From Piezodorus guildinii (lineage: Eukaryota; Arthropoda; Insecta; Hemiptera; Pentatomidae), in contig CM041295.1 in NCBI GenBank assembly GCA_023052935.1, forward strand, positions 19,282,880-19,346,879: 64,000 bases of DNA. Reading direction: 5' to 3'. The position numbers were made by a program, and so were the translations under genes. The notes beneath the pieces were generated by a model, which was given only the letters and a program-made list of their open reading frames with translations, was not told the DNA's origin and made no database searches. Shown here piece after piece: positions 1,487-64,000 of the stretch (positions are counted from its first letter, which is position 1; each line of letters begins with the position of its first letter).

Positions 1487-1586
1487 CATAGGGACCCTTG
1501 AGTCAAAATAACCAAGTCTCGCAAAAAAGTCTGTGTGCGCGTAAAATTTCATATTTAAGACAACTTTACGTCCGAGATGTTACAGC

Positions 1587-1623
<37 letters not shown>

Positions 1624-2010
1624 CGAAATCGGCGTACCAGAAGAGCTACTTTGTACCATGCATTTTACCATTTTTCACGATTTCCTCTAAAATGGCTCTA
1701 ACGATTTTGATTAAACTAGCTATATAAATTTGATGGATTTAATATGATGTAGGTTTAATTATGATTGAAATAGTCGGACCGGGCTTAAATGCTGATAGTT
1801 TAAATTCTCTTCCTCTAAAGCACTCTCAATTTTATAGATTCGAAAAAATAAAACATATCATTTTATTAACGTTGATAAAAACGGCTGAATATACGTGTAC
1901 AAGTTGAACGAATTTGATAATCAAGCAAAAGAGGAAAGAGCAAAAATATTTGTTTATTGTAATTTTAGGCTTTTTGATATTAATTACAGTAATATAGACG
2001 TATAATATGT
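1487..2010 (+). repeat. Dispersed repeat family R, copy B, with T32 insert
   Basis: The sequence resumes family R at AGGGACCCTTGAGTC and ends near a TATAGACGTATAATATG segment. A homopolymer of 32 T (1589-1620) interrupts it where copy A reads CAACTCTTTCACTAATATCGG. The T run could be a small A-tailed insertion on the minus strand or slippage expansion. No gene is seen. Confidence 0.7.
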
Positions 2011-2849
2011 ATTCTAAGGGAAAGAGGAAGATTTTAGAAGAAATATTATCTTATTCAAACAATTGTAAAAGGTTATGTAAATTGACGAATAGTACATACA
2101 CTTATTACTGAATATTATACGTAGCAATTTAGAATTGTAATATTATTTAATCTAACTTATATGTTTCTAACGAAACTGAATACACTTTTTATGTAAATTA
2201 ACTTAAACATTTTTTTCCACGTTAAGTTTATTTCGTAGTTCTTAAATTGATTTTATCTGGCGAGGTAAGTGAAAGTCGTGTGTTGCAAGCATCAGGTTTT
2301 TTACTTTTGAGGTAGGTAAAGGTCGTGTGTTGCCCGCACCAGATTTGTTTATAAGCACTATAATATAAAATTATTAAATTGTTAAGCAATTGTTAGTCTC
2401 GATTTGAAATTTAATAATGATAAATATTATTTTCAATGTTAATATAAAGTAATATTTTCTTTCTCTATTTAAAATATTCTTTGGAGCGGAAAAGTGGAGA
2501 TGAAATAAAGTTAGTTTTAATCGTTGAAGATGTGAAACAGAGTTGAAATTTAAGATATCCAGCCAGCTGTGTAACCTTCAAGAGGGGATATTTAGCCAGT
2601 TGCTCCGGGAAAATAATTATTCCCAACTCTTAAACAATTATTATTCAGCTTCATGATATTCCAGGGTAGATAAAACTAATTATATTTGTAATTAGAAATA
2701 AAAATGGTACGTGCTCAACACACTACTTTATCTTATCTCCCCTCTTGAAATCAAGTTCTAAACTTTTTAAGTTTTATAATTTGTTAATATATATTTTTTC
2801 TTTATTTTAAAGAAAATTACTACTGTATTATACAAAAAAATACATTAAG
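2011..2849. other. AT-rich spacer with short GTCGTGTGTTGC repeat
   Basis: No gene is recognised. Two direct copies of a motif containing GTAAGTGAAAGTCGTGTGTTGC or GTAGGTAAAGGTCGTGTGTTGC lie at about 2261-2342. The motif recurs at about 10292 and 18623 on the plus strand and at about 17184-17215 on the minus strand, so it is a short dispersed repeat. Its relation to family R is unclear; both carry a GTAAGTGAAAGT-type core. Confidence 0.5.
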
Positions 2850-3383
2850 TAAATGTGATAATTCATCATATGGGCTCGGTAAAGGCATGTGAAGAAACTA
2901 CAGTTTCGGTGTTTATTTAGTGTAGTAGGTCGCGAGGCCATGGCCTTTTCAGTCCCTACGAGGGATTATCAGAATTAGATGGTGATGAGAGGTTGGGGAC
3001 GAGTGGGTTAGGGTGGACGTGTAATTTGGAATTAAAGGGTAGTATGTATATCTAGTTCGGGCTATATCTGCAACTAATGGGATATTTAGGTCTTTATGGA
3101 TTATTTCATTGGTGACAAATTAAGTGATATTTGATCTAATCGGGAGGAATTGATGGTTTGGTGGATCCGCATAACTCAATCCCATAAGTCCAAATAGGCC
3201 TAATGATGGTAGTATAAATTAATTTTTTGTGGTGTATGGAGAGTTTTGAGCGTTTGTCAAGTAAATGTACATTTCATGTTTATCTTCAATAATAACCGAT
3301 TTTTTGGTGGAAATACATCTATTATAATTTGTGACTTGATGGATAAGCTTCTGATGGAATTTAGAGAATTTTGATGGTGTAAG

Positions 3384-4640
3384 GTCTAAAATAAATGGAA
3401 TATTTAGGTCGCGGTGTAAGGTAAGGTTGGTGACATAATAAGGAGCATTGGCTATGGTTCTGAGGACTTTGGATTGGAAGGATTGAATGCGTTTGATGTT
3501 AGCAAATTTGGCGGACCCCCACAGTTCCAGTAGACTTCAGTACTGTCGTGTATATTAGCAGTTTTCTATGGATAGTTTAGAATTTCTGTTCAGTAGTCTG
3601 TACAATTGGCCAAATCGTCGATTAAGTTCTTGTCGTTTAAGTCTAGTATGTCGGTTCCAAATTAGTCTTTTGTCTAGAAGGAAGCCAAGATACCGGACTG
3701 TGTCAGATAAAGGGAGCGGAATGGAGTTGAAGAGAACTGGAGGGCAGGATTCTCTTCGAAGGGTAAAGGTGAGGTTTGCATTTGGATTGATTGATTTTGA
3801 TTCTCCACTTGTTACACCAAGCGTCAATTTGAGAAAGGTGCGTTTTGAGGCCTATGGATGCAATTTCGGGATCTAAGTTAGAGGATAGGATGGCTGTGTC
3901 ATCAGCGTACGTTGCAAGGAAGGTATTAGGGCAAACAGGAATATCAGCCGTGTATATATTGTAGAGGATAGGACCAAGGACGCTGCCTTGAGGAACACCG
4001 GATTCAACTGGATAATAATTGGAATATTCTGTACCACAGCGAAATCGGAAGGAGCGGTTTGATAGATAGGATCGGAGGACTAGGTATAAGGATTGGGGTA
4101 AATGGTTTTTGAGCTTGAAGAGTGATCCCGGGTGCCACATCCGGTCTAATGCTTGCGTTATGTCCCGAAATGCACTCGAGCAGTACTCCTTGTTCTCAAG
4201 GGCAGAGGAAATGTGGTCAACAACTCGGAGGGGGCTGTTTTACTTTTAGGCTGCAGTGTGGTTTGGATGGGATTCTGGACGAGGTGTGAAAGCTTCGGAA
4301 AGGTATTTGGCAAGTTCCTCGGCTTGGTCTTCATCAGACGCAGCCCAGGAACCATAACTACGACGGAGGGGATGGGAAATATGATGAGATTTTAGAATTT
4401 TCTTGGTGACATTCCACAGGGAATGGTCACGAGCCGAGAGAGAAGAAAGGAAGAAACTAAAGGATTGGGAACGGAGGGTCGCTAGCTCCCTCTTTAATTG
4501 TCTACAATAAAAGTTATAGGAGCGGCGATCTGTGCGATGGCGGGTGCGTTGCCATAAGGATCTGGATCGGCGTTTGGTACGGATGAGGTCTATGAGGTGT
4601 TGTGGTAAATGGTTTCGGTTATGACTTATCTGGGAGTACT
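3384..4640 (-). pseudogene. Jockey-type LINE reverse transcriptase domain, frameshifted
   Basis: The minus strand shows RT motifs in order. An RDITQALDRMWHPGSLFKLK-type segment (about 4165-4100) is followed by ESGVPQGSVLGPILYNIY and then TYADDTAILSS, the YADD polymerase site. A change of frame leads into TVRYLGFLLDKRLIWNRH (about 3700) and later GSAKFANIKRIQSFQ with a TLHRDLNIP segment (about 3510-3400). The pieces lie in at least three frames with stops between them. Residue choice around YADD and LGFLLDKRL is typical of the Jockey superfamily; a finer clade assignment would need a tree. Confidence 0.85.
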
Positions 4641-15566: not shown

Positions 15567-16395
15567 TGCAATATTTAGTGTTCCTCCTGTAGCATCGTCC
15601 GATTATTCACAGTACCATAAAAGATAACGTTAATAAATAAACATAAGGCTATCATTCTTATTCCACCAGAAAAAAAATCCGAATCCATGGACTCAATGAA
15701 ATCACGAAAAGAATTGTCAATGTCGTCCTGGTTTTGAAAATTTTTCTCCCTCAAAAAGTTGTCCAGATGCCTGAAAAAGTGGAAGTCTGTAGGAGAGAGG
15801 TCAGGTGAATAAGGCGGATGTTGGAGAACTTCGTAGCCCAACTCGTGCAGTCGTCGAAGCGTTGGTTGTGCAACGTGTGGTCTGGCGTTATCGTGGAGCA
15901 GGATCGGCCCCTTCCGATTCATCAATGCTGGGCAAAGACGTTGCAATTTTTGAGTTCCGAGTTCCGCCGCCATTTCTCGTGTGGTTTTGGTTGGGTCTTC
16001 TTCCACTTTTGACCTCAGCTGGTCGTTGTCCAGAGCAAGATGACGGCCCCGACCTTCCTTGTCTTCGAGGTCGAAATCTCCTCTGCGAAACTTCTGGAAC
16101 CAACGCTGCACCGTGCACTCATTAATAGCCCCCTGACCCCACACTTCATTAATATTACGAGCCGTTTGCGCAGCGCTGCGCCCTAATTTAAATTCGTAAA
16201 AATAAATTTGACGAAAATCGCATTTTGACATTTTCGATTCAAGACCTTTGAACACACTGAACAAAACGATTTTACTAAACAAATTCATGGTGAAAGAGAG
16301 GGTATTAGATAAGGTTTGTTTTGGTATAATAATGATCAATGTTAGGATTAGCTTTGTTTACACAATTGGAATTAAGATATTGCAATAGAGGAAAC
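15562..16395 (-). mobile_element. mariner element, internally deleted
   Basis: This transposon surrounds a mariner transposase remnant. Candidate ends read TGCAATAT on the minus-strand 5' side (about 16386) and, inverted, TGCAATATTTAG at about 15566. TA dinucleotides lie outside both. The end match is only moderate over 26 bases, so the boundaries are tentative. Confidence 0.5.
15575..16231 (-). pseudogene. mariner transposase with in-frame internal deletion
   Basis: Mariner transposase cuts and pastes its element at TA sites. The likely start is the ATG at 16231 (MSKCDFRQIYFYEFKLG), which begins the helix-turn-helix region (AAQTARNINEVWG, ECTVQRWFQKFRRGDFDLED). After REMAAELGT the frame jumps to QKLQRLCPALMNRKGPILLH. 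Family members are about 345-350 residues and this one is 218, so about 110-115 residues are gone, including the first catalytic Asp. The second Asp (HDNARPH) and the third (SPDLSPTD) remain with 34 residues between them, the mariner D34D spacing. The C-terminus after FFSGGI looks frameshifted. It cannot transpose. Confidence 0.85.
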
Positions 16396-22207: not shown

Positions 22208-22460
22208 GGGGCCATGGAGCAACTCGTGGAACAGACTGCGATTGATTCAGTGGCTGCTAATGACCTCAGAATTCGCCAATATCAATATGACAGTCCATGT
22301 ACTACACTCATGGAATGAGGAAAAGAGAACATAATATTGAGGAACTGAGGGAGCAGGGGCCATGGAGCAACTGTTAGAACGGACTGCGATTGATTCATTG
22401 GCTAATAATGACCTCAGAAAAAGCCTTGATCAATATGACAGTCCATGTTCCACATATATA
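22208..22460 (+). repeat. Satellite monomer block 2a
   Basis: One complete monomer and one cut by the first foldback element at a CACATATATA site (22451-22460). The block continues at 25076. Confidence 0.9.
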
Positions 22461-22464
22461 GCAT

Positions 22465-22635
22465 TTCCAAGTCAAATTCAACCTTTTTCAAGTCAATTTC
22501 AACCTTTTCCAAGTCAAATTCAACCTTTTCCAAGTCAAATTCAACCTTTTCCAAGTCAAATTCAACCTTTTCCAAGTCAAATTCAACCTTTTCCATGTCA
22601 AATTCAACCTTTTCCATTTTAAATTCAACCTTTTT
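22465..22635. repeat. FB1 left-arm 21-bp minisatellite (8 units)
   Basis: Eight 21-bp units of the type CCAAGTCAAATTCAACC plus TTTT; the last two are diverged. Because 21 is a multiple of three, all frames stay open and give seven-residue repeats such as PSQIQPF. Those frames are artefacts. Confidence 0.95.
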
Positions 22636-22889
22636 CGATTTCAATAAAATAATAAAAATCAAATTAACATCATTTTATGTTTTAATGGTTACTTTAATTA
22701 CACCTTGTGTTTTTAACCCTTGTGGCTTGTTAAATGTTCCCAGGGGCCTTTCTACATATAATTAGTCACGAATGTAATAATAAGTATAACCGATACATTC
22801 ATTTTAAGACATTTGCGATACAAGATCTGGTAGTCGGATTAGCGGGTTTCTTTTTATTTTAGTTTTATAATCGCGGGCGAAAATATTAT

Positions 22890-23650
22890 CAATAGAGGTT
22901 TATTTTAACTTTTTCGTATTTATTGGATAGTAGGCTCAGTAGCTGCGTTCCCAAAGGTTCGTTACCGACTACACTATTAATTTTAATCGCGCTCGCTCAA
23001 ATATGGGTTTATAATAACTTTTTCGTATTTATTGGATACTAGGCTCAGTAGCTGCGTTCCCAAAGGTTCGTTACCGATTACACTATTAATTTGAATCGCG
23101 CTCCCTCAAATATCGGTTTATTATAGCTTTTTCGTATTTATTGGATACAAGGCTCAGTAGCTGCGTTCCCAAAGGTTCGTTACCGACTACATTATTAATT
23201 TTAATAGCGTTCGCTCAAATATGGGTTTATTATAACTTTTTCGTATTTATCGGATACAAGGCTTAGTAGCTGCGTTCCCAAAGGTTCGTTACCGACTACA
23301 CTATTAATTTTAATCGCGCTCGCTCAAATATGGGTTAATTATAACTTTTTCGTATTTATTGGATACTATGCACAGTAGCAGCGTTACGGGGGGTTCTTTC
23401 CCGACCAGTCTATTAATTATTCGTGCGCTCGCTCAAATATGGGTTTATTATAACTTTTTCGTATTTATTCGCTATTAGGCTCAGTTGATGCGTTGAGGAG
23501 GTTGCTATCCTAATTATTCAATTTATTTTAAGTGCTCTCGCTCAAGAAGAGGTTTATTTTAACTTGTTCGTATTTACTGCATACTAGGCTCAGTCGCTGC
23601 GTAACCAAGGACTCGTTACAGATTATACTATTAATTTTAATTGCGGTAAC
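22890..23650. repeat. FB1 left-arm 108-bp tandem repeats (7 units)
   Basis: AACTTTTTCGTATTTAT recurs at about 22909, 23017, 23127, 23235, 23343, 23451 and 23560. Each unit also contains GGCTCAGTAGCTGCGTTCCC, GGTTCGTTACCGA and CGCGCTCGCTCAAATATGGG. The units nearest the centre are the most diverged. Confidence 0.95.
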
Positions 23651-23889
23651 TCAAGTAGAGGTTTATCAAATAAGAATGTACTTATAAAATCGTTCTGTTT
23701 AGCTGATTATTATCAAACTCCAAAATATTAACCAAAAAGATAACACACTATCCTGAAAAAAAAAACCAATACATGAAAAGTTACAAAAAACACGAAATAA
23801 ACATACATTAGACCAACTGACTAAAAAAACATTAAAACTCCCGAAACACAAATACAGAAATTAGCATAGAAAAGAAACACGAATTTATA

Positions 23890-24665
23890 ATAAACCCATA
23901 ATTGAGCGAGCGCGATAACAATTAATAGTGTAATCGGTAACGAACCTTTGGAAACGCAGCTACTGAGCATAGTATCCAATAAATACGAAAAAGTTATAAT
24001 AAACCCATATTTGAGCGAGCGCGATTAAAATTAATAGTGTAATCGGTAACGAACCTTTGGGAACGCAGCTACTGAGCCTTGTATCCAATAAATACGAAAA
24101 AGTTATAATAAACCCATATTTGAATGAGCGCACGAATAATTAATAGACTGGTCGGGAAAGAACCTCCCGTAACGCAGCTACTGAGCCTAGTATCCAATAA
24201 ATACGAAAAAGTTATAATAAACCTATATTTGAGCGAGCGCACGAATAATTAATAGACTGGTCAGTAACGAACCTTTGGGAACGCAGCTACTGAGCCTTGT
24301 ATCCAATAAATACGAAAAAGTTATAATAAACCCATATTTGAGTGAGTGCACGAATAATTAATAGACTGGTCGGGAAAGAACCTCCCGTAACGCAGCTACT
24401 GAGCCTAGTATCCAATAAATACGAAAAAGTTATAATAAACCCATATTTGAGCGAGCGCACGAATAATTAATAGACTGGTCGGTAACGAACCTTTGGGAAC
24501 GCAGCTACTGAGCCTTGTGTCCAATAAATACGAAAAAGTTATAATAAACCCATATTTGAGCGAGCGCGATTAAAATTAATAGTATAATCGGTAACGAACC
24601 TTTGGGAACGCATCTGCTGAGCCTACTATCCAATAAATACGAAAAAGTTAAAATAAACCTCTATT
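23890..24665. repeat. FB1 right-arm 109-bp tandem repeats (7 units, inverted)
   Basis: TACGAAAAAGTTATAATAAA recurs at about 23986, 24095, 24204, 24313, 24422, 24531 and 24640 in the opposite orientation to the left arm. Two unit types alternate in part of the arm, one with CGGTAACGAACCTTTGGGAA and one with CGGGAAAGAACCTCCCGTAA. The left arm shows only one copy resembling the second type. Confidence 0.95.
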
Positions 24666-24911
24666 GATAATATTTTCGCCCGCGATTATAAAACTAAAAT
24701 AAAACGAATCCCGCTAATCCGACTACCAGACCTTGTATCGAAAATGTCTTAAAATTAATGTATCGGTTATACTGATTATTATATTCGTGACTAATTATAT
24801 GTAGAAAGGCCTCTGGGAAACATTTAACAAGCCACAAGGGTTAAAAACAAAAGGTGTAATTAAAATAACCATTAAAACATAAAATTATGTTAATTTGATT
24901 TTTATTATTTT

Positions 24912-25075
24912 ATTGAAATCGAAAAAGGTTGAATTTGAAATGGAAAAGGTTGAATTTGACTTGGAAAAGGTTGAATTTGACTTGGAAAAGGTTGAATTTG
25001 ACTTGGAAAAGGTTGAATTTGACTTGGAAAAGGTTGAATTTGACTTGGAAAAGGTTGAATTTGACTTGGAAATGC
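24912..25075. repeat. FB1 right-arm 21-bp minisatellite
   Basis: About seven and a half 21-bp units of AAAAGGTTGAATTTGACTTGG in tandem, inverted relative to the left arm, with the innermost unit diverged. Confidence 0.95.
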
Positions 25076-25370
25076 TATATAAGAAGAGATAAAGAAACAT
25101 AATATTGAGGAATAGAGGAAGCAGGGGCCATGGAGCAACTCGTGGAACAGACTGCGATTGATTTATTGGCTATTAATGACTTCAGAAAAAGCCTAGATCA
25201 ATATGACAGTCCATGTTCCACATTTATAAGAACAAAAAAAGAAACATAATATAGAGGAATAGAGGGAGAAGGGGCCATGGAGCAACTCGTGGAACAGACT
25301 GCGATTGATTCATTGGCTGGTTATGACCACAGAAAATGCCAAGATCAATATGACAGTCCATGTTCCACAC
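25076..25370 (+). repeat. Satellite monomer block 2b
   Basis: Monomers resume with TATATAAGAAGAGATAAAG directly after the foldback end. There are two monomers before the next linker. Confidence 0.9.
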
Positions 25371-27300: not shown

Positions 27301-27950
27301 GTTGCCTACTGACGAACAGACAATTGACAGAGCTGCATGAAGACTCAAATTCGCATATCATTGACATCCATATACACTCATGAATGAGGAAGAGAACATA
27401 ATATGAGAATGAGGAGCAGGGGCCATGGAGCAACACTCGATGTATGAAACCAGAGGACTTAGTCGAATTTGATTCATGTGGTCAATTCAATGTACCATCA
27501 GAATTCAGCCTATTATCAAATGAACTTTCCATGTACAAATTCATTTCATGTAAAAATCAATTTTCAATTTAAATCAGACCATGTCAATTTAAACATATTA
27601 TTACTAATAATATCAAAAAATCAATATGACATCTTTTCCAATTATATTAATTTCAATTAATTCAACCTTTTTAGTAATTTCAACCCTTTGTAGTTAAACT
27701 TTTCCAAGTAAAGCCTTTCAGTCATTGAATTAGTCAAATTCAATTTTATGTAAATAACTTATTATTAAACAATTTCGATTTCAATTAATTATTAAACATC
27801 ATATCAAGATCATGTTAGTGTTAGGTACTTGTAATTTACACTTGTGTTTTAACCTGGGCTGAAAATGTTCCAAGAGGCTTATTTTAAATATTGTCCGATG
27901 TAATTATAATATAACCGTACATTTTTTAAGGTTTCGTACAAGATCTGGTA
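27301..27950. repeat. Corrupted patch: linker end, monomer, foldback left end
   Basis: This should hold the linker end, a monomer and the left minisatellite, as at 22150-22850. Instead the words of those parts appear in order with many small gaps and extra bases (GGGGCCATGGAGCAAC, then TTTTCCAA fragments). Sequence returns to near identity with FB1 at CAAGATCTGGTAGTCGG (about 27940). It looks like poor consensus; the frames in it should not be annotated. Confidence 0.7.
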
Positions 27951-30193
27951 GTCGGATTAGCGGGATTCGTTTTATTTTAGTTTTATAATCGCGGGCGAAA
28001 ATATTATCAATAGAGGTTTATTTTAACTTTTTCGTATTTATTGGATAGTAGGCTCAGTAGCTGCGTTTCCAAAGGTTCGTTACCGACTACACTATTAATT
28101 TTAATCGCGCTCGCTCAAATATGGGTTTATTATAACTTTTTCGTATTTATTGGATACTAGGCTCAGTAGCTGCGTTCCCAAAGGTTCGTTACCGATTACA
28201 CTATTAATTTGAATCGCGCTCCCTCAAATATCGGTTTATTATAGCTTTTTCGTATTTATTGGATACAAGGCTCAGTAGCTGCGTTCCCAAAGGTTCGTTA
28301 CCGACTACACTATTAATTTTAATAGCGCTCGCTCAAATATGGGTTTATTATAACTTTTTCGTATTTATCGGATACAAGGCTTAGTAGCTGCGTTCCCAAA
28401 GGTTCGTTACCGACTACACTATTAATTTTAATCGCGCTCGCTCAAATATGGATTAATTATAACTTTTTCGTATTTATTGGATACTATGCACAGTAGCAGC
28501 GTTACGGGGGGTTCTTTCCCGACCAGTCTATTAATTATTCGTGCGCTCGCTCAAATATGGGTTTATTATAACTTTTTCGTATTTATTCGCTATTAGGCTC
28601 AGTTGATGCGTTGAGGAGGTTGCTATCCTAATTATTCAATTTATTTTAAGTGCTCTCGCTCAAGAAGAGGTTTATTTTAACTTGTTCGTATTTACTGCAT
28701 ACTAGGCTCAGTCGCTGCGTAACCAAGGACTCGTTACAGATTATACTATTAATTTTAATTGCGGTAACTCAAGTAGAGGTTTATCAAATAAGAATGTACT
28801 TATAAAATCGTTCTGTTTAGCTGATTATTATCAAACTCCAAAATATTAACCAAAAAGATAACACACTATCCTGAAAAAAAAAACCAATACATGAAAAGTT
28901 ACAAAAAACACGAAATAAACATACATTAGACCAACTGACTAAAAAAACATTAAAACTCCCGAAACACAAATACAGAAATTAGCATAGAAAAGAAACACGA
29001 ATTTATAATAAACCCATAATTGAGCGAGCGCGATAACAATTAATAGTGTAATCGGTAACGAACCTTTGGAAACGCAGCTACTGAGCATAGTATCCAATAA
29101 ATACGAAAAAGTTATAATAAACCCATATTTGAGCGAGCGCGATTAAAATTAATAGTGTAATCGGTAACGAACCTTTGGGAACGCAGCTACTGAGCCTTGT
29201 ATCCAATAAATACGAAAAAGTTATAATAAACCCATATTTGAATGAGCGCACGAATAATTAATAGACTGGTCGGGAAAGAACCTCCCGTAACGCAGCTACT
29301 GAGCCTAGTATCCAATAAATACGAAAAAGTTATAATAAACCTATATTTGAGCGAGCGCACGAATAATTAATAGACTGGTCAGTAACGAACCTTTGGGAAC
29401 GCAGCTACTGAGCCTTGTATCCAATAAATACGAAAAAGTTATAATAAACCCATATTTGAGTGAGTGCACGAATAATTAATAGACTGGTCGGGAAAGAACC
29501 TCCCGTAACGCAGCTACTGAGCCTAGTATCCAATAAATACGAAAAAGTTATAATAAACCCATATTTGAGCGAGCGCACGAATAATTAATAGACTGGTCGG
29601 TAACGAACCTTTGGGAACGCAGCTACTGAGCCTTGTGTCCAATAAATACGAAAAAGTTATAATAAACCCATATTTGAGCGAGCGCGATTAAAATTAATAG
29701 TATAATCGGTAACGAACCTTTGGGAACGCATCTGCTGAGCCTACTATCCAATAAATACGAAAAAGTTAAAATAAACCTCTATTGATAATATTTTCGCCCG
29801 CGATTATAAAACTAAAATAAAAACGAATCCCGCTAATCCGACTACCAGACCTTGTATCGAAAATGTCTTAAAATTAATGTATCGGTTATACTGATTATTA
29901 TATTCGTGACTAATTATATGTAGAAAGGCCTCTGGGAACATTTAACAAGCCACAAGGGTTAAAAACAAAAGGTGTAATTAAAATAACCATTAAAACATAA
30001 AATTATGTTAATTTGATTTTTATTATTTTATTGAAATCGAAAAAGGTTGAATTTGAAATGGAAAAGGTTGAATTTGACTTGGAAAAGGTTGAATTTGACT
30101 TGGAAAAGGTTGAATTTGACTTGGAAAAGGTTGAATTTGACTTGGAAAAGGTTGAATTTGACTTGGAAAAGGTTGAATTTGACTTGGAAATGC
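27475..30193. mobile_element. Foldback element FB2 (left end corrupted)
   Basis: This is a second copy, nearly identical to FB1 from about 27940 to 30193, including both 108-109-bp arrays, the centre and the right minisatellite. The left 450 bp are scrambled, so the start is approximate. The right flank (ATAAGAAGAGATAAAGAAAC) is the same as for FB1, showing that the copy arose by duplication of the surrounding satellite and not by a second insertion. Confidence 0.8.
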
Positions 30194-30485
30194 TATATAA
30201 GAAGAGATAAAGAAACATAATATTGAGGAATAGAGGAAGCAGGGGCCATGGAGCAACTCGTGGAACAGACTGCGATTGATTTATTGGCTATTAATGACTT
30301 CAGAAAAAGCCTAGATCAATATGACAGTCCATGTTCCACATTTATAAGAACAAAAAAAGAAACATAATATAGAGGAATAGAGGGAGAAGGGGCCATGGAG
30401 CAACTCGTGGAACAGACTGCGATTGATTCATTGGCTGGTTATGACCACAGAAAATGCCAAGATCAATATGACAGTCCATGTTCCA
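30194..30485 (+). repeat. Satellite monomer block 4
   Basis: Two monomers after FB2, identical or nearly so to 25076-25370. Both include the variant AGCCTAGATCAATATG. Confidence 0.9.
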
Positions 30486-34027: not shown

Positions 34028-34340
34028 ACACTCATGGATTCAGTGGCTAAGTAAGTCTACGGGAGACGCCATGATCAATATGACTTATGTATATTTAAAA
34101 TAATGTAGAATTAGAAGTTAATGATCAATATGGAAATGATGTAAACAATCACCTTGATCATTATTGCTTTCTCTACATGAATTTTTAACTCCGCCATAGC
34201 CCGGTCCCAAGTCCGGGTTGAGAAAGGAGGAGGGTTGAGGTTTAAAGGATTTGGTCCTTCCTCGTAAAAATATCTTAACGATGATACTCTACTAACCAAT
34301 TTTCAGAGAAGAGGCAATTAGTGGTAACTTAAAATATAAA
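34028..34340 (+). repeat. Satellite linker L6, left half
   Basis: The linker runs to AACTTAAAATATAAA and is then interrupted by the provirus. It resumes at 41823 with TAATAATAAGTAACG. Confidence 0.9.
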
Positions 34341-34628
34341 ATTTTGGTGTTCGTGCTCGTTATTGTAAAAAAAAAAATATTTTATTTATTCAAAAGTTAC
34401 AAAATATCGATAATAACACTTTAAAAGACAATAATGACAATCTTGATAATAACAATATGGCTATACTAGATCTGACATAGATTACGTACCGTAATTACTG
34501 CGAGGACTTGAAGAGAGTGATCCCTGGGAGAAGGGACAGGGTATATAAAGGTTAATAGGACTGCTGAATAAGATTCAAGGAATATGGTGTGATCTGCAGG
34601 TGCACTATGGCCTCATGGTGGCGTGACT
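34341..34628 (-). repeat. Provirus 3' LTR
   Basis: This 288-bp direct repeat of 41535-41822 begins AGTCACGCC and ends CCAAAAT on the element strand. AATAAA signals (34381-34390) lie near the 3' end and could direct polyadenylation. Confidence 0.9.
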
Positions 34629-34639
34629 CCTCCGTCCTT
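34629..34639 (-). promoter_or_regulatory. Polypurine tract
   Basis: AAGGACGGAGG lies directly upstream of the 3' LTR on the element strand, where plus-strand DNA synthesis would be primed. One C interrupts the purines. Confidence 0.65.
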
Positions 34640-34668
34640 ATGAGAGTGAAGCCCACTGAACTCTAAAT

Positions 34669-36306
34669 TTAAGGATTTGGGACGGTTTGTCTATTCTGTA
34701 AATATTGAAACCAAGCTCTGGCTCTGCCATCAAAACATTCAGGTGGTTGAGGATGGGTACTTGGATTATCATTTGAAGGATTAGAACACAGTAATTCCAG
34801 TTTACAATACTGACGATAAAGATTATAGCATAAAAGATATAAACATATTACATAAAATATATAAGAAATAAATTGGGATACAGTTATATCATAAGGTTCT
34901 AATTCTTCTATTTCTATATTACTTAAGTCTATTTGTTGTAATTCCTCAAAAGTAAAATTTGTTGATACAATAGTTTTATTATTAACAGAATGATAGGAAA
35001 TAAAAGGAATATTTACATTGTCAACATAAGAAAGTGGTACATTTATATTTACAAATTTCTCTTTTTCATTAAGATTAAGGAGGCTAGTAGATGGTAGATG
35101 ATACATTTGTGTGTTTGTTACACTAGTTGTTACATTGCTAATATTAAAGGTTAAATATTGGTGTAATGTGGGTATAAGTTTGATTATAGGGTTTGTTCTT
35201 ATTTCTACAGCTTTACAATCATTTAATTCTATATTCTTACATAATTCTAAAATACATTTGTCCTTAATCTCTATCATGTCTTTACAGTAATGATGATTAT
35301 TGAATTTAATACAATTTTCATTGTAAAACGAATTTTTAAATCTAATGATTAGTTGTTCTTTAATCTTTAGAGTAATGACTTTATTATTCCTTGTAACTGG
35401 ATATGACATAGCATAATAAGTTGTTTTTGGCAATGATTTCAAAGGGATTTTAATAAAATAATAAATTAATCCTGTATCTGATAGGGAACAAAATGTGGAG
35501 CTAAGTAACCAGTTTAATTCTACATTTTCTGTGATTGGTTCTCCGAACGGTATGTTTAATTGTTCTAGTTCTCTAGTCGTTAATATGCTTGGATGGGTAA
35601 TTCCTAATTTACATTGTTCTAAGGAAAATTCTATATCATTTAATTGATTTTCTACTAAATCTAATACGGCTAATAAATCATGATACATTAACTTAGTAAG
35701 AGCTAAATCTGTAAAATTATTTATTTTTTCTATACTATCCTTATATTTATTTAAAACAATTATTTCTTTATTAAGTTTAGATGTTAATTCTTTATTTAAT
35801 CCTAATCTAACATTTTCATTATGCTCTATGTGATACATATTTCTCTCGATTTTATTTAAAATATTATCATACTTTTCTTTGTCATCGGCGTCCATATTGC
35901 CGGTGAGCCAACTAATAGCATTGCCTAGTCCGTTAATTAAACCTCTTTTTGATCGGTTATTCCGATTTATATTTACAATATGATTAATTTTTTCTAATAT
36001 CTTGTTATATTTTTGTTCAATAATATTATGCAAAGTTTTATATTCATTACTAATTGTTAATACGTCAATGCTGATCTTAAGGGTTTGAATTTCTCTTGTT
36101 AAATTTGTAAGATTCTTATAATGTAAAAATGTGTACCAATCTTCAATTATAAAAGATGGATTAATTTGTACGATGGATGCTCCTGGTCCGTCAGATAAAT
36201 CTTGTATTAGCAGGGTCTGTATCTGAACCGTAAGCGCTGCGATCAGAAGATACTTGAAACAATTCGTCGTCGAACTCAAAGTCATCTTGGCTGACTCCTG
36301 TAACAT
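34669..36306 (-). CDS. Errantivirus-like Env (F-type fusion glycoprotein)
   Basis: This 545-residue open frame in a third frame begins at ATG 36306, with another Met at residue 8. It is the envelope glycoprotein, which in this family is exported to the cell surface. Visible features are a hydrophobic signal-like segment (residues 17-34), several N-x-S/T sites, and a furin-type RSKR at 118-121 followed by a Gly-rich hydrophobic stretch of the fusion-peptide kind. A membrane segment lies near 474-496, with a tail of about 49 residues. This layout matches insect errantiviral Env, related to baculovirus F proteins. Its expression is expected from a spliced RNA, as in gypsy; the splice sites were not identified. 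The frame is uninterrupted. Confidence 0.85.
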   Translation of the reverse strand: MLQESAKMTLSSTTNCFKYLLIAALTVQIQTLLIQDLSDGPGASIVQINPSFIIEDWYTFLHYKNLTNLTREIQTLKISIDVLTISNEYKTLHNIIEQKYNKILEKINHIVNINRNNRSKRGLINGLGNAISWLTGNMDADDKEKYDNILNKIERNMYHIEHNENVRLGLNKELTSKLNKEIIVLNKYKDSIEKINNFTDLALTKLMYHDLLAVLDLVENQLNDIEFSLEQCKLGITHPSILTTRELEQLNIPFGEPITENVELNWLLSSTFCSLSDTGLIYYFIKIPLKSLPKTTYYAMSYPVTRNNKVITLKIKEQLIIRFKNSFYNENCIKFNNHHYCKDMIEIKDKCILELCKNIELNDCKAVEIRTNPIIKLIPTLHQYLTFNISNVTTSVTNTQMYHLPSTSLLNLNEKEKFVNINVPLSYVDNVNIPFISYHSVNNKTIVSTNFTFEELQQIDLSNIEIEELEPYDITVSQFISYIFYVICLYLLCYNLYRQYCKLELLCSNPSNDNPSTHPQPPECFDGRARAWFQYLQNRQTVPNP

Positions 36307-37546
36307 TAGACGTTTCTATTTCTTTTATGACATTCTCAATATCTTCATCAGTTATTTCTGGGTTTTTTTGACTTGTACTAGGTTTATTATTATTATTATT
36401 TGATTTCTTTTTCTTAGTGACCTTTTTCGGTCGTTTGACTTGATCAGGGTGGAGTTTTTTCTTTCTACCTTTATTTCTATTTTGAAATCTTTTATCAACA
36501 TACTTTCCTTTTTCGTATTTAGGATCTATTTTCTTTTTCTGTTGTCTCTTTATATACACATCTTCCGGGATTTCTATGTCTTCTCTATTTTCATTTAACT
36601 TGCCTATTTTTCTCTCTTTATTTTGTTCTATACCTTTCTTAGTTATTTCGAAAAGCTGCTTCATTTTCCGATGGTACTCATGAACAAGATATTCTTTTAT
36701 TTCCGGGGATTCATTATAAGTTTCATTAGTGATACCGAAAGTTATTTCGTTAGGGGTCATTTTAAGATCTTGATTAAGGGAATTATTATATGCTGTCGTT
36801 GCTTGCTCTAACTTATCTTCCTCTTTATCATCTTTGTTTTCTATGTTTATAAGTCTTAAAATTTCTAATAACGAAGAGCTTGCTCGATTAAGCAATCCAA
36901 GAGAGTTAGGGTGATTGGGGGTAGTATAATGTAATTCAATATTTAAGTAGTTTAGAAAATCTTTAAACAAGTTATTGTCGAATTCTCTTCCGTTGTCACA
37001 TGATATTTTTTGGGGTTTTGGAAAATATGCTAAATATTTTTTCAATACTTTCATGCTTTCTATGGCATTATAACTCGTTGCGTAATAAGAAAATATTCTT
37101 TTGGAAAACGTATCTACTATTAAATAAATGTAATAATTACTCATGTGTAAGGTATCAATCATTAAATCTGTAAAGGGTTTCTCAGGTGTGGGAGTAATTT
37201 TAAATTTTTGTTTTATAGGTCTTCTATCGTATTTGCCTTTTCCACATGTGTCACATTTGTTTATAATTTCTGTGATATGATCTTTCATATTGGGCCAATA
37301 AAATTTGGTTTTCAAAACTAAATATGTTTCATTTATACCTCTGTGGCATGTCTTGGCGATATGATAATCAAGGATAAGTAATTTCTGGTCTTCCGTGTTC
37401 TTTACATCTGGCAATAGTTTATAATATCTTTTAATTCTATTTGTGGGAAATTTTTCTCTAATGAGTGATGCAACTTTATTAAATAATGCATTATACCAAT
37501 TATTTTCACTTTCTATAGAATCTGATATGGGTGAGCAGTATATGCC
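36191..37546 (-). pseudogene. Pol part 3: integrase, catalytic Glu position is Asn
   Basis: This continues the frame after the TAG. Counting from codon 37414, the zinc-binding HHCC motif is at H18, H24, C54 and C57. The core has Asp87 (LMIDT) and Asp140 (SCDNG). The residue that should be Glu, 35 residues further on in the GLxER position, is Asn176 (codon 36889-36887). A basic Lys-rich C-terminal tail, with an Asn run and an acidic end, follows. As written the integrase lacks its catalytic triad. The last 116 bases overlap the env frame. Confidence 0.85.
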
Positions 37547-39056
37547 CTAAGTTATATTTGGTCTTAAGATTTCTAAAAGTTTTTCTTCTATTTCAAAATC
37601 TTTTTCATGATAAGGCCAAGTAAATTCAATTGTTGTTCTTTGCTTATTATTGAATATTGTTTCGCGTTGAATTTTCGCGTGTCCCTTTTTTATTATTATT
37701 TGATTTTTCTCAACATTTACTGGTCTAGATTTATCATCAACTATTAAGATTCTGTTATCGGAGGATTCTGTGGAGTGCTGCGTTGCTAAAGAAGATATAT
37801 CATCTTGAATTATTTCTTGGTGTTCACCATTATTATTTTCTTCTATGTTTTCATCATTATTAATTCCTTCTAAGTTTTCATTGTTAGCTTCTTCTTGGGT
37901 TTCTTCTATTCCCATTTCTTGTAATAAATCTACGATTTCTTGTGAATAGTTATTAGGAGAATTTTCTGTATGAAAAATATCAAATTCTGGTTCTTTTAAT
38001 TTCCTTTCTTCAATAGGGTAACGGGATAAATGATCGGCGACTTTATTAGCCTTTCCTTCAATGTATTTTATGTCATATTCGAAATCTTCTAACAATAATT
38101 TCCATCTAATTAATCTGGCGTTCTGTGTTTTACACGTTCTTAAATATTCTAAAGGTTTGTGATCTGAATATATGAAAAATTTTCTACCGTATAAGTAGGG
38201 TCGAAAATGATTGCAAGCCCAAATAATGGCTAAACATTCCTTTTCCGTTGTTGAGTAATTTTGTTCTGCTTTATTAAGTGTTCTGGATGCAAAACATACA
38301 GGGAGTTCTTTTCCATCTTTCTTCTGTGCTAATACTGCACCAATGGCGAAATTACTTGCGTCAGTTGTTAAGAAAAAGTCCTGATTGAAATCTGGAATTT
38401 GCAAAATGGGGCTACTACATACAAGTTGTTTCAATTTCTCAAAAGCGTTTTCATATAACTCTGGTTTGATTTCTTTTTGATCTTTTCGAAGACATCTCGT
38501 TAATGGGGAAGCTATCTTTGCGTAATTTGGTATCATTTTCCTATAGAAACCAGTTAATCCTAAAAAGCTTTTAATTTCTTTTTCATTTTTAGGGAGTTTA
38601 AAATCTTTTACTGCTTTTATCTTTTCTGGATTAGGTTCTATGCCGCGTTCGCTGATAATATGTCCGAGGAATAACAATTCTTTCTTGCAAAATTCTGTCT
38701 TATCGAGCTGAATCTTTAAGTTATGTTTTTCTAACTTTTTAAGAGTTTCTTCTAAATGTTTCCAATGATCTTTGTAATTTTCAGAAAAAATTATAATATC
38801 GTCCATATAGACTAAAACGTTAATAGAATCTGAAAAAATGATATTCATGGCTCTTTGAAACGTTGCTGGGGCATTACTGAGTCCAAATGGCATGCGAAGG
38901 AATTCAAAGTGGCCTTGATCTGTAGAAAATGCTGTTTTTGGGATAGAACTTTCTTCGACTTTTATTTGATGGAAGCCTGAGCAAAGGTCCATTGCTGTAA
39001 ATATCGTCGCTTTTCCTAATTTGCCTAAAAGGTCTTCAATATTAGGAATGGGGAAT
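37547..39056 (-). pseudogene. Pol part 2: reverse transcriptase and RNase H
   Basis: The frame open from about 39056 carries the RT core: FPIPNIEDLLGKLG, then MDLCSGFHQI (with the first catalytic Asp), MPFGLSNAPATFQRAMN, and the YMDD site at about 38809-38798. RNase H follows with TTDAS (Asp), KEC (Glu) and YSDHKP (Asp) at residues 211, 252 and 277 counted from Met at 38992. A linker rich in Glu and Asn separates RNase H from integrase. A TAG at 37547-37549 stops this frame; the same frame continues into integrase. Catalytic residues of both enzymes are intact. Confidence 0.88.
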
Positions 39057-40082
39057 TTATCCGGGGTTGTTTTCTCGATTTAATTTCCTGTAATCAATCA
39101 CCATTCGTATTTTTCTTTTTCCTGATGCGTCTGGCTTTTTCGGGACAATCCAAACGGGAGAATTGTAAGGGGAATTGCTGGGTCTTATTATTTTGGATTC
39201 TAACATCTTTTTAATTTCTTCCTTAATATTTTCTTTGAATTGGTGGGGATATCTGTAATTTTTCGAATATATCGGGTCTTCGGTTTTTGTTTTAATCTTA
39301 TGCTCCAATAAATCAGTGGCTGAAAGGGGATCATTTTCAGTCTTAAATACTGATGGATATTTCGATAATAATTTAATTAAATTTGATTTTTCTTGAGGAG
39401 GTATATGGTCGGTTCTGATTAGTTGGGGGATTTGTTTTATTATTTCATGGTTTCCTTTTTTATTAGAATCTGTTAATTCTACTTCTTCTTTTTGCAAATA
39501 GTATAAAGGTAAATATATGGTTTCGTTAACTTTACTGTCGATTATTATATTTTGATCATAGATGCCAGGTTTAATTTTAATCTTATCATCTTCATAGTCA
39601 ATAAAATATAGATTTTTATTTTGTTCTACTTTTATCTGATTTTCGCCTTCTTTCAAAACTAATTTTAAAACTTCGTCTTCCATAATAAAATCAAACTCTG
39701 TATAGCGAGTTTTTATTTTGTTGGTTTCGAAATCGATATTAAATTTCATTTCCCTCATTGTCTCATTTCCTAGTAGTATTTCGTAATTGGGACTGAAATT
39801 AAATAGATAAAATTTTATTTTTTCGGGGTTTTTAAGAAAATTATTTCTGCAATAAACTGAAATAGATTCCGTGCCAAGTTCTTCTCCGGTTGCTGTTTTT
39901 ATTGTAAAATTTTCTTTTTCTCTTTCAACATCTGGTGGTACAATGTCTGGTCTTATATAATTCTTCCAAGATCCGGTATCAATAAGCCATTTACGATTCG
40001 CGTGGTCTTTAACATAAGGCAGTTGGCTTTTATTCTCTTCTTTTATGTGTTTTGATTGTCTGGCGGGCCTTTCTCTAAAAAA
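39057..40082 (-). pseudogene. Pol part 1: protease and start of reverse transcriptase
   Basis: Read in the -1 frame from the frameshift site, this carries the retroviral-type aspartic protease with WLIDTGSWKNYIRP (active site DTG) and NYEILLGNETM toward its end. It then carries the RT fingers (SKNYRYPHQFKENIKEEIKK, SPYNSPVWIVPKKPDASGKR, MVIDYRKLN). The frame closes at 39057, where one base too many in a G run (39061-39064) moves the continuing RT into another frame. Since the LTRs are nearly identical, this break is either recent or a consensus error. Confidence 0.85.
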
Positions 40083-41173
40083 GAATTATTTGGATCTAAT
40101 TTTTCTAATTTCTCTCTTAATTCTCTGATTTCTTGGTCTTTCGGGTCTTCTTGCTGAATTTGGAAATTAGGCTGTTTCGGTTTATTCCCGAATGCGCTAA
40201 CTGTTCTCATGGATACAGTTGGATTTTCATCTTTCTTATTATTATTATAATTTTGATTCCGGTATCGACCTGAACCGTTGAAATACCTTTGTTGTTCTTG
40301 ACGGGGCCATTGTTGGTAATAATTATTATTATTATTATTCTGCCGGTAGTCTTGTGGAGGTTCTTGTTGTCGATATTGATGCTCTTGTCTTTGATTATGT
40401 GGGTTATACGGGTTATTGGGATTTTGCCAATTATTAAATCGTTTGTGATGTTTTTTATCGAACTTTTTCTTATGGTCGAAGCCTCTTTTGTAATCATGTT
40501 CTCCGGGTCTTCTCATATTTCCCGAATTTATGAGGTCATCGAAGAGTAGATGGTTCTCATTCTGAATTAAATTTCTCAAATCATCTAATGTTCTTAACTT
40601 TTCTGCTTTAGTCATAAGATATGTTCTTATGTGAAGGGGCATGTTAGTGTAAAAAAAATAAAGAATACTTTTCTCTAATGCGCTAATAATTGTTTCTCTA
40701 TTTGGTGTGTTTTCTATCCGATGTTTAGAAATTATTAAAGTGCGGATCTTATCAATTCTTTGAAGGAAATCAAGAGGGTGTTCCTTATGATGTATTTTGT
40801 TATTAAATAATTCATGCGATAATTGTTCAATTGAGCGGCTGTCTCTGAAGGTTCTTTCGAGATAATTTAGTAATTCTTCAACACGACTAAATTCGCACGT
40901 TGTATTTATATAATCAGCTTCATCCGTAAGTTTTGCTAAAAGTTTACTTAATAATCTTTGTTCGTTTAGTTCCTTAAACGAGTTGTCCGGTTTACACACG
41001 ATTTGGTAAACTTGTCTACAAACTGTCACGAATTTTAACAGATTGTGTGGATTTCCATTAAAATTAGGGATATGATCGTAGTCTGCCGATTTAATTTGAA
41101 AGCTTGCCATATTTGTAGTTAATATTAAATTATTTACTCGCAGGATTAAAGAATTTAAATAATCATCAGACAT
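40043..41173 (-). CDS. Errantivirus-like Gag
   Basis: This 376-residue open frame begins at an ATG at 41173. Gag forms the particle core in the cytoplasm and packages the RNA. The first two thirds are helix-rich with a YLERTF and DFLQRIDKIRTL-type capsid region, as in Ty3/gypsy Gags. The C-terminal third is basic and rich in Asn, Gln and Arg (KKKFDKKHHKRF, repeated Asn and Gln runs) and has no CCHC zinc knuckle, as in many errantiviral Gags. The frame is intact. Its last 14 codons overlap pol in the -1 frame. No stop or frameshift is present, so this product could still be made. Confidence 0.85.
   Translation of the reverse strand: MSDDYLNSLILRVNNLILTTNMASFQIKSADYDHIPNFNGNPHNLLKFVTVCRQVYQIVCKPDNSFKELNEQRLLSKLLAKLTDEADYINTTCEFSRVEELLNYLERTFRDSRSIEQLSHELFNNKIHHKEHPLDFLQRIDKIRTLIISKHRIENTPNRETIISALEKSILYFFYTNMPLHIRTYLMTKAEKLRTLDDLRNLIQNENHLLFDDLINSGNMRRPGEHDYKRGFDHKKKFDKKHHKRFNNWQNPNNPYNPHNQRQEHQYRQQEPPQDYRQNNNNNNYYQQWPRQEQQRYFNGSGRYRNQNYNNNKKDENPTVSMRTVSAFGNKPKQPNFQIQQEDPKDQEIRELREKLEKLDPNNSFLEKGPPDNQNT
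40076..40082 (-). promoter_or_regulatory. -1 ribosomal frameshift heptamer at gag-pol
   Basis: The element strand reads T TTT TTA with the triplets in the gag frame (the first T is the third base of a codon), which is the X XXY YYZ pattern. The pol frame is exactly -1 relative to gag and is open from here through the protease. A GC-rich patch, GGCCCGCC, follows about 6 nt downstream in otherwise AT-rich sequence; a clear stem-loop was not identified by eye. Confidence 0.75.
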
Positions 41174-41516
41174 AAAATTACAATAGTAAAGGAAATTAAC
41201 TTACAAAAATTGAGTACGCTGTCAAAATAATCTTCGACGGGGTGTGAAGATCTGTCCTTGAGCTGGATACCTGACGACAGTGAAGTCCGGCCAAGGTTGA
41301 GTGCAGATAAGAGACTTTGCCTGCGTTGCGAGATGCTCGGGGTGAGTGAACTCGTCCAGAATCTGAAGATCTCGAAGTTGGTAGTCCTCGGTAGGTAAGC
41401 CAAAATCTTGAGTCTTCACAGGTGAGGAATCCTAGGCGGTAGTCCTAATTCTGGATTTGCGGAAAAAGTTCGGATCTGCGGAAACTCGGTTCTTAAAACT
41501 GCGATAAAAATATGCA
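41174..41516 (-). other. Provirus 5' leader
   Basis: About 340 bases lie between the primer site and gag. The short frames in it (for example 41403-41155) have no family resemblance and overlap the gag start. It would hold packaging and splice signals, but none can be pinned down by eye. Confidence 0.6.
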
Positions 41517-41534
41517 GTCCCTGTTCGGGCGCCA
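41517..41534 (-). promoter_or_regulatory. Primer binding site, tRNA-Lys type
   Basis: Immediately inside the 5' LTR the element strand reads TGGCGCCCGAACAGGGAC, an 18-nt sequence complementary to the 3' end of tRNA-Lys of the type used by lentiviruses. It would prime minus-strand DNA synthesis. Its position directly at the LTR edge also fixes the LTR boundary. Confidence 0.9.
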
Positions 41535-41822
41535 ATTTTGGAGTTCGTGCTCGTTATTGTAAAAAAAAAAATATTTTATTTATTCAAAAGTTACAAAATA
41601 TCGATAATAACACTTTAAAAGACAATAATGACAATCTTGATAATAACAATATGGCTATACTAGATCTGACATAGATTACGTACCGTAATTACTGCGAGGA
41701 CTTGAAGAGAGTGATCCCTGGGAGAAGGGACAGGGTATATAAAGGTTAATAGGACTGCTGAATAAGATTCAAGGAATATGGTGTGATCTGCAGGTGCACT
41801 ATGGCCTCATGGTGGCGTGACT
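41535..41822 (-). repeat. Provirus 5' LTR
   Basis: 288 bp, one difference from the 3' LTR. It would supply the promoter; a TATATAAA-type motif lies at 41736-41743 and reads as TTTATATA on the element strand. Confidence 0.9.
41736..41743 (-). promoter_or_regulatory. Candidate TATA element in 5' LTR
   Basis: The element strand reads CCTTTATATACCC here. The motif fits a pol II TATA box, although many insect LTRs use initiator and downstream elements instead. It is a weak assignment by motif only. Confidence 0.35.
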
Positions 41823-47050: not shown

Positions 47051-49160
47051 GGGGCCATGGAGCAACTCGTGGAACAGACTGCGATTGATTCAGTGGCTGC
47101 TAATGACCTCAGAATTCGCCAATATCAATATGACAGTCCATGTTCTACACTCATAGAATGAGGAAAAGAGAACATAATATAGAGGAATAGAGGGAGCAGG
47201 GGTCATGGAGCCACTCGTGGAACAGACTGCGATTGATTCATTGGCTAATAATGACCTCAGAAAAAGCCTTGATCAATATGACAGTCCATGTTCCACATAT
47301 ATAAGAAGAGATAAAGAAACATAATATTGAGGAATAGAGGAAGCAGGGGCCATGGAGCAACTCGTGGAACAGACTGCGATTGATTTATTGGCTATTATTG
47401 ACTTCAGAAAAAGCCTTGATCAATATGACAGTCCATGTTCCACATTTATAAAAACAAAAAAAGAAACATAATATAGAGGAATAGAGGGAGCAGGGGCCAT
47501 GGAGCCACACGTGGAACAGACTGCGATTGATTCATTGGCTATTAATGACATCAGAAAAAGCGTTGATCAATATGACAGTCCATGTTCCACATATATAAGA
47601 AGAGAAAAAGGAACATAATATAGAGGAATAGAGAGAGCAGGGGCCATGGAGCCACTCGTGGAACAGACTGCGATTGATTCATTGGCTATAATGACCTCAG
47701 AAAAAGCCTTGATCAATATGACAGTCCATGTTCCACATATATAAGTAGAGATAAAGAAACATAATATTGAGGAATAGAGGAAGCAGGGGCCATGGAGCAA
47801 CTCGTGGAACAGACTGCGATTGATTTATTGGCTATTAATGACTTCAGAAAAAGCCTTGATCAATATGACAGTCCATGTTCCACATTTATAAAAAAAAAAA
47901 AGAAACATAATATAGAGGAATAGAGGGAGCAGGGGCCATGGAGCCACTCGTGGAACAGACTGCGATTGATTCATTGGCTATTAATGACATCAGAAAAAGC
48001 CTTGATCAATATGACAGTCCATGTTCCTTATATATAAGAAGAGAAAAAGGAACATTATATAGAGGAATAGAGAGAGCAGGGGCCATGGAGCCACTCGTGG
48101 AACAGACTGCGATTGATTCATTGGCTATCATGACCTCAGAAAAAGCCTTGATCAATATGACAGTCCATGTTCCACATATATAAGAAGAGAAAAAGGAACA
48201 TAATATTGAGAAATAGAGGGAGCAGGGGCTATGGAGCAACTTGTGGAACAGACTGCGATTGATTCATTGGCTATTAATGACATCAGAAAAATCCTTGATC
48301 AATATGACAGTCCATGTTCCACATATATAAGAACAGAAAAAGAAACATAATATTGAGGAATAGAGGGAGAAGGGGCCATGGAGCAACTCGTGGAACAGAC
48401 TGCGATTGATTCATTAGCTGGTTATGACCACAGAAAATGCCAAGATCAGTATGACAGTCCATGTTCCACATATATAAGAAGAGAAAAAGGAACATAATAT
48501 TAGAAATAGAGGGAGCAGGGGCTATGGAGCAACTTGTGGAACAGACTGCGATTGATTCATTGGCTATTAATGACATCAGAAAAATTCTTGATCAATATGA
48601 CAGTCCATGTTCCACATATATAAGAAGAGAAAAGGAACATAATATGAGGAATAGAGGAGCAGGGGCCATGGAGCACTCGTGGAACAGACTGCGATTGATT
48701 CATTGGCTATAATGACCTCGAGAAAACCTTGATCAATAGACATCCATTTCCACATTATAAGAAAAAAAAGAATAATATGAGAATAGGAGCAGGGCCTGAG
48801 CACTGTGGAACAGACTGCGATTGATTCATTGGTTATGACACAGAAAAATCCTGATCATATACAGTCCATTTCCAATATATAAGAAAGAAAAAGGAACATA
48901 ATATGAGGAAATAGAGGGAGCAGGGGCCATGGAGCAACTGTGGAACAGACTGCGATTGATTCATTGGCTATTATGACATCAGAAAAACCTTGATCAATAT
49001 GACAGTCCATGTTCCACATATATAAGAAAGAAAAAGAACATAATATGAGGAATAGAGAGAGAGGGCCATGGAGCAACTCGTGGAACAGACTGCGATTGAT
49101 TCATTGGCTGTTATGACAACAGAAAATGCCAGATCAATATGACAGTCCATGTTCCACATA
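47051..49160 (+). repeat. Satellite monomer block 10 (about 14 monomers)
   Basis: Long monomer run. From about 48640 single-base losses appear and monomer spacing falls to about 129-140 bp. The pre-linker variant and a shortened linker start (ATGGATTAAGACAAAAGTAAG) appear at about 49155. Confidence 0.9.
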
Positions 49161-63249: not shown

Positions 63250-64000
63250 ATGCGATTGATTAGATTAATGAAAGAAAAATTTGAATTAAGGGTATTTTCC
63301 AAAAAAAGAAAAAAAGAAAAAATATTGGGTTTGGGGGCCGGGGGCCTAAAAAGGGGGAACGGGATTCGTTTGTTTAGGCTAAATTTAAAATTTGATTTTT
63401 TTCCATTTTCCAAAAATAAAGAAAAAAAACAAAAAATTGGAAAAAGGGCCAGGGACCTGTAAAATGCTTTGTTTTGGGGTTTAATAACAGTTGAAATTAA
63501 GAAGAATTTTCCAATAAAAAAAAAGGGAAAACAAAAATTTTAAAATTGGGGGACGGGGCCAAAATTTTGGAAGGCCATTGTTTGGGGGTAAAATTAACCC
63601 AAAAGTTGGATAATTTGCATAATGCCAAATTTAAAAAAAAAGAAATGGAAAGGGGGGGTTTAAAATAATACAGAAAAAAAATAGATTGAAAAAAATGGGG
63701 AAAGGGAAAACCTTGAAAAAGATTGATTTGATGGGTAAAGGGCCCCAAAAACCCCCAATTATCTTTTGAAGCCCCTTTTACATAATAAAAGAAAAAAAGG
63801 AAACATAATTTTGAGGAATAGGGGAGGGGGGGCCTTGGAACTTTGGAAAGGATGGTTTTATTGGCAATTTTGCCCAAAAAATATAATTGACAGCCCTTTT
63901 ACAATATAAAAAAAAGAAAATAATTTTGGGAAAATAGGGGGAAGGGGAAATGGAGAATTTGAAATGCAATTTTTTTTGTTAAAATGATTAAAAAAATTTT
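63250..64000. repeat. Satellite remnant with inflated homopolymers
   Basis: The last 750 bases still follow the monomer order (for example AACATAATTTTGAGGAATAG, then GGGGCCTTGG) but homopolymers of A, T, G and C are lengthened, giving runs such as GGGGGCCGGGGGCC. Local G content is well above the rest of the array. The pattern is that of a single poor read end and not of a gene. Confidence 0.75.

Follow-up and report, generated by a model that had tools for sequence, protein, structure and literature searches.

The element at 22459..25077 of the window (the whole 64,000-nt stretch of Piezodorus guildinii DNA that was analyzed) is a real, non-coding transposable element with layered mirror-image arms, as had been noticed from the letters alone; its structure is far beyond chance and recurs genome-wide. 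It is interpreted, with a probability of about 0.78, as a non-autonomous class II foldback transposon that is moved in trans by a TA-targeting, most likely Tc1/mariner-like, transposase. The sequence-only reading had called arms made of two repeat classes unusual, a view that has to be tempered, since composite multi-domain foldback arms are already described for Tetris and Tm1. What appears to be new, as judged by sequence comparison, is the use of one end module and a single layout with two seemingly unrelated sets of arms. The parts of the window element are as follows.

22459..25077, no strand: whole foldback element, TAGC...GCTA, 2619 bp
22464..22634, plus strand: left 21-bp array, 8.1 units, unit TTTCCAAGTCAAATTCAACCT
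22645..22896, plus strand: left spacer, ~252 bp, unrepeated, recurring in family-1 loci
22896..23658, plus strand: left second-tier array, 7 x 109 bp
23667..23889, no strand: non-inverted centre of 223 bp; other copies reach ~250 bp
23898..24660, minus strand: right second-tier array, 7 x 109 bp, in which a 218-bp dimer pattern is visible
24661..24912, minus strand: right spacer, limits approximate
24923..25072, minus strand: right 21-bp array, 7.1 units

Both ends of the window element are TAGCATTTCC, from which the layout proceeds inward through the 21-bp array, a spacer of ~250 bp and the 109-bp units to the centre. Alignment of the arms resolved an outer inverted pair (22485-22741/24816-25072) of 257 nt with 97% complementarity and an inner pair (22737-23666/23890-24819) of 930 nt with 87% complementarity, the latter separated by 223 nt. 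This alignment and the repeat counts confirmed the two-tier plan first described, with a 21-bp minisatellite outside and seven longer units inside each arm; the number of units stood, and their length, given earlier as 108-109 bp, was corrected, all 14 units being exactly 109 bp when cut at one common anchor. From outer to inner, the unit types are ordered A A A A B C D on the left arm and A, ab, B, ab, B, A, A on the right. The innermost left units L6 and L7 are divergent, with L6 sharing no more than 77% identity with any of the remaining units of the window element, and they adjoin the centre on one arm in most of the listed copies. Within the right-arm dimers, R2 and R4 are 98% identical and R3 and R5 97%; judged from these identities, they look like the trace of one unequal-exchange or slippage event. 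The description of the two repeat classes as unrelated was borne out, in that the 21-bp and 109-bp units are no more alike than shuffles (91 of 500 shuffles reached the score). No coding sequence was seen in the window element, in agreement with the earlier remark that it encodes no transposase.

It is extremely improbable that the element is an assembly or read-through palindrome artefact. The window is partly noisy, with degraded satellite at 49-64 kb and a degraded left end in a second copy of the element; against this, the arms of the window element differ in unit order and in 21-bp copy number, its flanks consist of a 147-bp satellite that runs in the same direction on both sides and is not inverted, and the same plan is found at other loci with different flanks. 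A read-through palindrome would be expected to produce arms that mirror each other and flanks that are inverted; the unequal arms and the copies at other loci thus answer the read-through concern for the family. The second copy lies downstream of the first.

27773..30195 (approximate), no strand: second element copy, left end degraded

It matches the first copy almost exactly in the centre and right arm, and its right flank begins alike; on this sequence evidence it would most simply be explained by local duplication rather than by a separate insertion event. The sequence at its left arm (27309-27830) is degraded, perhaps because sequencing or polishing went wrong at the palindrome, which makes this end of the second copy untrustworthy. 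From 49200 to 64000 the 147-bp satellite seems to continue with dense indels, substitutions and a strong purine skew, which looks like an unpolished noisy long-read consensus and not biology.

The insertion site was examined by comparing the filled site with an uninterrupted part of the same satellite.

22457..22458, no strand: left TA target-site duplication
25078..25079, no strand: right TA target-site duplication
47225..47377, plus strand: uninterrupted satellite stretch, the empty-site counterpart, matching 153/154 joined-flank bases

When the flanks were joined minus one TATATA, the resulting sequence matched the uninterrupted stretch with no mismatch, and the proposed insertion of a transposon into a satellite monomer was thereby upheld. 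Such a match is expected if TA was duplicated and the element is TAGC...GCTA; by itself, it is compatible with a duplication of 6, 4 or 2 bp, according to the position taken as the start of the element. A duplication of TATATA, as first suggested, is favoured by the joined-flank test alone; it was rejected, because TA with TAGC ends fits equally well and the end pairs described below support only TA. The original limits of the element, 22461..25075, were accordingly revised, the true ends lying 2 bases further out, with TAGC beginning at 22459 and GCTA extending to 25077. For the 1.6-kb flanks, the best full-length satellite matches (left ends at 44343/45821/47303, right starts at 43151/44630/46108) are about two monomers apart, so either rearrangement of the array has followed the insertion, or the closest empty locus is a different one or lies outside the window. 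The 147-bp satellite occupies 19863-49161 and has a higher-order period of ~1,480 bp.

Target duplications were scored in 38 end pairs from 38 loci in which both outer ends could be placed; L046, a duplicate of L014, was excluded. The TA duplication that is a feature of Tc1/mariner membership was found at both ends in 34 of these pairs, in addition to the matching empty site, and four pairs were without TA on both sides. A (TA)n tract was present in a flank of 12 of the 38 pairs. Outside such tracts, the two flanks agreed over 2 bases in 23/26 pairs, over 3 bases in none, over 4 bases in 10/26 and over 6 bases in 1/26, and the next outward flank bases were A (43/52) and then T (39/52). The target choice is shown to be ATATAT-like sites. 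The junction TA|TAGCATTTCC is nearly invariant, with T at -2 in 84 and A at -1 in 88 of 89 end matches, a set that includes one spurious-looking match (L043 at 4054) and three tandem ends of L053. The TA duplication and the target composition together point most probably to a TA-duplicating transposase of the Tc1/mariner-like kind. A possible but less probable assignment is to a different TA-duplicating superfamily, for example an ISL2EU-like or as yet unnamed one, a proposal that overlaps with the preferred one except for the name of the transposase. Several transposon groups duplicate two bases, and TAGC is not known as a typical start of Tc1/mariner elements; against this proposal, Tc1/mariner is the group best known for a palindromic AT-rich TA target, and the genome holds many DDE_3 matches.

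The anatomy by which foldback elements are recognized was found throughout, namely long tandem-repeat inverted arms and a short centre, in dispersed copies with defined ends and a target duplication. The likeness to Drosophila Foldback that had been drawn at the outset therefore holds for shape and fails for the target duplication, only TA being present here in place of the 8-10 bp of the Mutator/FB group or the 7 bp of the P superfamily. Tetris of Drosophila virilis is described in the relevant part of PMC4079207 as a non-coding foldback element with composite arms, consisting of a flanking domain, ~220-bp tandem repeats of variable number and an inner domain; changes in array size are attributed to unequal exchange, and no autonomous partner is reported there. 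The window element resembles it in all of these general respects (non-coding, composite arms, a variable tandem array, no autonomous partner found) and differs in that the same part of the source describes no minisatellite in the Tetris flanking domain, in that the Tetris tiers have a 37-bp stretch in common, and in that the duplication is 8-10 bp. Galileo of Drosophila likewise has long arms with ~210-bp internal tandem repeats whose number is unequal between the arms of a single copy; according to the portion of PMC3573991 concerned, it belongs to the P superfamily, has a 7-bp duplication and includes transposase-coding copies. Tm1 of root-knot nematodes shares composite multi-domain arms with a 13-15 bp tandem repeat in variable number, and the corresponding section of PMC3169594 gives a 9-bp duplication, a Phantom-like (Mutator-type) protein and both coding and non-coding members, and describes no second tier of long repeats. 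Membership in the Mutator/Foldback group (Drosophila FB, Tetris, Tm1), with a MULE-type transposase, is very unlikely: the long composite inverted arms, internal tandem repeats and lack of coding sequence are as described for Tetris and Tm1, but both of those have long duplications, and here only TA is consistent. In form, the window element is thus close to Tetris and Galileo, and its target duplication is neither Mutator-like nor P-like and is closest to Tc1/mariner. A further Tc1/mariner-type non-coding element with a variable-length tandem array is the MITE miDNA4 of Xenopus, in which the array is satellite DNA that, in the passage of the review PMC12628747 devoted to it, is internal and not mirrored in arms with a terminal minisatellite. 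A search of titles and abstracts in a limited open-access collection returned no described arms with a terminal minisatellite, an unrelated second tandem tier and a TA duplication. The palindromic, foldback-like Tc4 and Tc6 of C. elegans have been linked to Tc1/mariner-type transposition; they are not known to have two-tier tandem arms.

The distribution of the element was determined in the whole assembly (1.203 Gb, 434 contigs). The search for the termini that the sequence-only reading had recommended returned abundant, dispersed exact 17-bp ends, 4,373 in total (2,172 + 2,201), and none with the reversed pattern used as a control. The 25-mer end of family 1, to which the window element belongs, occurs 1,350 times (672 + 678) and that of a second family 2,560 times (1,260 + 1,300), again with 0 in the reversed controls. 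One or the other 25-mer is carried by 3,910 of the 4,373 ends; the 463 that carry neither would be copies with point mutations or members of further families. When the first 100 ends listed on C1 were taken for each family, neighbouring ends less than 7 kb apart were 22 convergent, 0 divergent and 10 same-strand for family 1, and 40 convergent, 0 divergent and 0 same-strand for family 2; four of the ten same-strand pairs fall in the nested or tandem loci L013 and L053. At two ends each, copies with exact ends are estimated to number roughly two thousand and may make up about half a percent of the genome.

A query with the window element gave 228 matches when 40 of 2,255 first-look candidates were scored, and 38 stretches (37 distinct loci) were fetched, a sample biased toward window-like copies. 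The fetched loci show the ends, 21-bp array, spacer, 109-bp array, centre and mirror image, some being truncated, nested or compound; both spacers, both arrays and a single centre are present in 31 of the 37 other distinct loci as well as in the window copy. The 21-bp array has 2-15 units at 90 ends (a set that takes in neighbouring or nested copies and three tandem ends of L053), and the 109-bp array has 2-22 units per arm in 32 complete copies. Among the 38 rows of aligned unit types, most have an R1/L1-type unit outermost on both arms, the types adjoining the centre on opposite arms are L7 in 37 and R7 in 29, and the inner A and B types vary from copy to copy. Largely fixed edge units around a fluid middle would fit a founder whose arrays have been turning over by unequal exchange or slippage.

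One arm had seven units in all 32 complete copies, a pattern that was set aside as ascertainment bias, the top matches having been drawn with a 7/7 query. Eight copies chosen by their ends (L047-L051, L054-L056) served as the check: units per arm were 12/11 in L054, 8/5 in L055 and ~6.75/8 in L056, five/none in L049 and two/two in L050; L051 had none, L048 had seven units on one arm, its other arm carrying a large insert, and L047 was compound. The lopsided L049 has about two 21-bp units, the spacer and five 109-bp units at its left end and only about six 21-bp units at its right end, with TA flanks on both sides. Homogenization of arms within a copy was also considered and found to be weak; in the 32 copies, spacers differ by 1.7% within copies and 2.3-2.9% between copies, yet the partner arm is a nearest sequence in only 26/64.

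A quite different origin, in which an inverted satellite rearrangement was spread by recombination and segmental duplication and not by transposition, is highly improbable. Local duplication does occur, as in the second window copy and L046, in the C4 neighbours L029 and L031, which have an identical right flank and probably arose in this way, and in the tandem truncated ends of L053; the near-invariant precise ends, the TA duplications and the many different insertion sites nevertheless argue for transposition. In L053, positions 300-1333 form a 354-bp tandem array, each unit combining a truncated element end with what we take, from its motif, to be a mariner end; the array looks like a small satellite built from two transposons.

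Beside one of the fetched loci (L017), a different foldback element was found, with a related 21-bp array and a second tier of 112-bp units.

L052 247-3600 (also L057): family-2 element, with 112-bp arms at L052:248-1304 and 2220-3269

This copy has no left 21-bp array. Two further copies of which both ends were read (L058/L059 and L060/L061) start with TAGCATTTCCAAGTCAATTGTAACC, have nine 21-bp units as counted by eye and show TA junctions. Scoring 38 of the 2,126 first-look candidates for family 2 gave 271 matches, and this family, too, is dispersed. Two short elements, L062 and L063, measure 756 and 776 bp from end to end; both are deletion forms of family 2 that keep a 21-bp array at each end, with more divergence in the arrays of L062. 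Two long elements (5,905 and 6,515 bp) contain 112-bp repeats in the 901-bp middle piece that was read. No similarity was found between the 112-bp and 109-bp units (332/500 shuffles scored as high), between the spacers of the two families (430/500) or between their centres (231/500), and in seven comparisons no convincing motif common to the tiers or to the families' units, spacers or centres emerged (lowest, 44/500 shuffles). The two families thus appear to have near-identical ends and one type of 21-bp array with dissimilar second tiers; undetected similarity in AT-rich DNA is no proof of separate descent, and an ancient common origin of the 109- and 112-bp units is possible. It is doubtful, although conceivable, that a portable end module (TAGCATTTCC plus the 21-bp array) gained entirely different ~110-bp satellite-like mirror arms at least twice, the two-tier layout itself being favoured for transposition or for escape from silencing.

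In the preferred mechanism, a transposase supplied in trans would cut and paste the non-autonomous element after recognizing the TAGC end and the 21-bp repeats. The terminal array may act as an iterated transposase-binding platform, as its period of about two helical turns would place the repeats on the same face of the helix and as it is kept, besides the TAGC end, in both families. The second-tier arrays of ~110 bp could be passenger repeats, or an auxiliary part in which layout and not sequence matters, and would expand and contract through slippage or unequal exchange while the edge units stay largely fixed. For Galileo, and by analogy for Tetris, the arm repeats have been suggested to hold secondary binding sites (in the relevant parts of PMC3573991 and PMC4079207); here no sequence common to the two tiers was found that would support such sites.

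Among the small part of end pairs that was read, no transposase-bearing element with these ends was seen. End pairs with large spacing were considered as an autonomous partner and rejected: L048 contains a LINE-like frame, L047 is compound and two others contain 112-bp arrays. The L048 frame (1503-4577; 1,025 aa, open) lies inside a foldback copy and by eye reads like a LINE protein. A search for DDE_3, which was unselective, yielded 7,325 first-look candidates, and none of the 150 scored was tied to these ends.

These findings bear on why foldback elements that are not related to one another retain tandem arm repeats. Two abundant families in the present genome are nearly alike in their ends and agree in layout, with no similarity detected elsewhere, and the shortened and lopsided copies that keep both ends make the needed tier testable by comparison and by transposition assay. 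The families also indicate that foldback elements with a TA duplication exist apart from the Mutator and P lineages, and they constitute a dispersed source of satellite-like repeats.

Two other mobile elements were identified in the window. A relic of a Mos1-type mariner transposase lies at 15575-16357, with a match to HTH_48 and a weaker one to DDE_3 below the cut-off. At 34340-41822, inside the same satellite as the foldback element, is a Gypsy-type LTR element whose 289-bp LTRs are 99.65% identical; it contains reverse transcriptase, RNase H and integrase frames (Pfam) and, by eye, a further frame at the envelope position.
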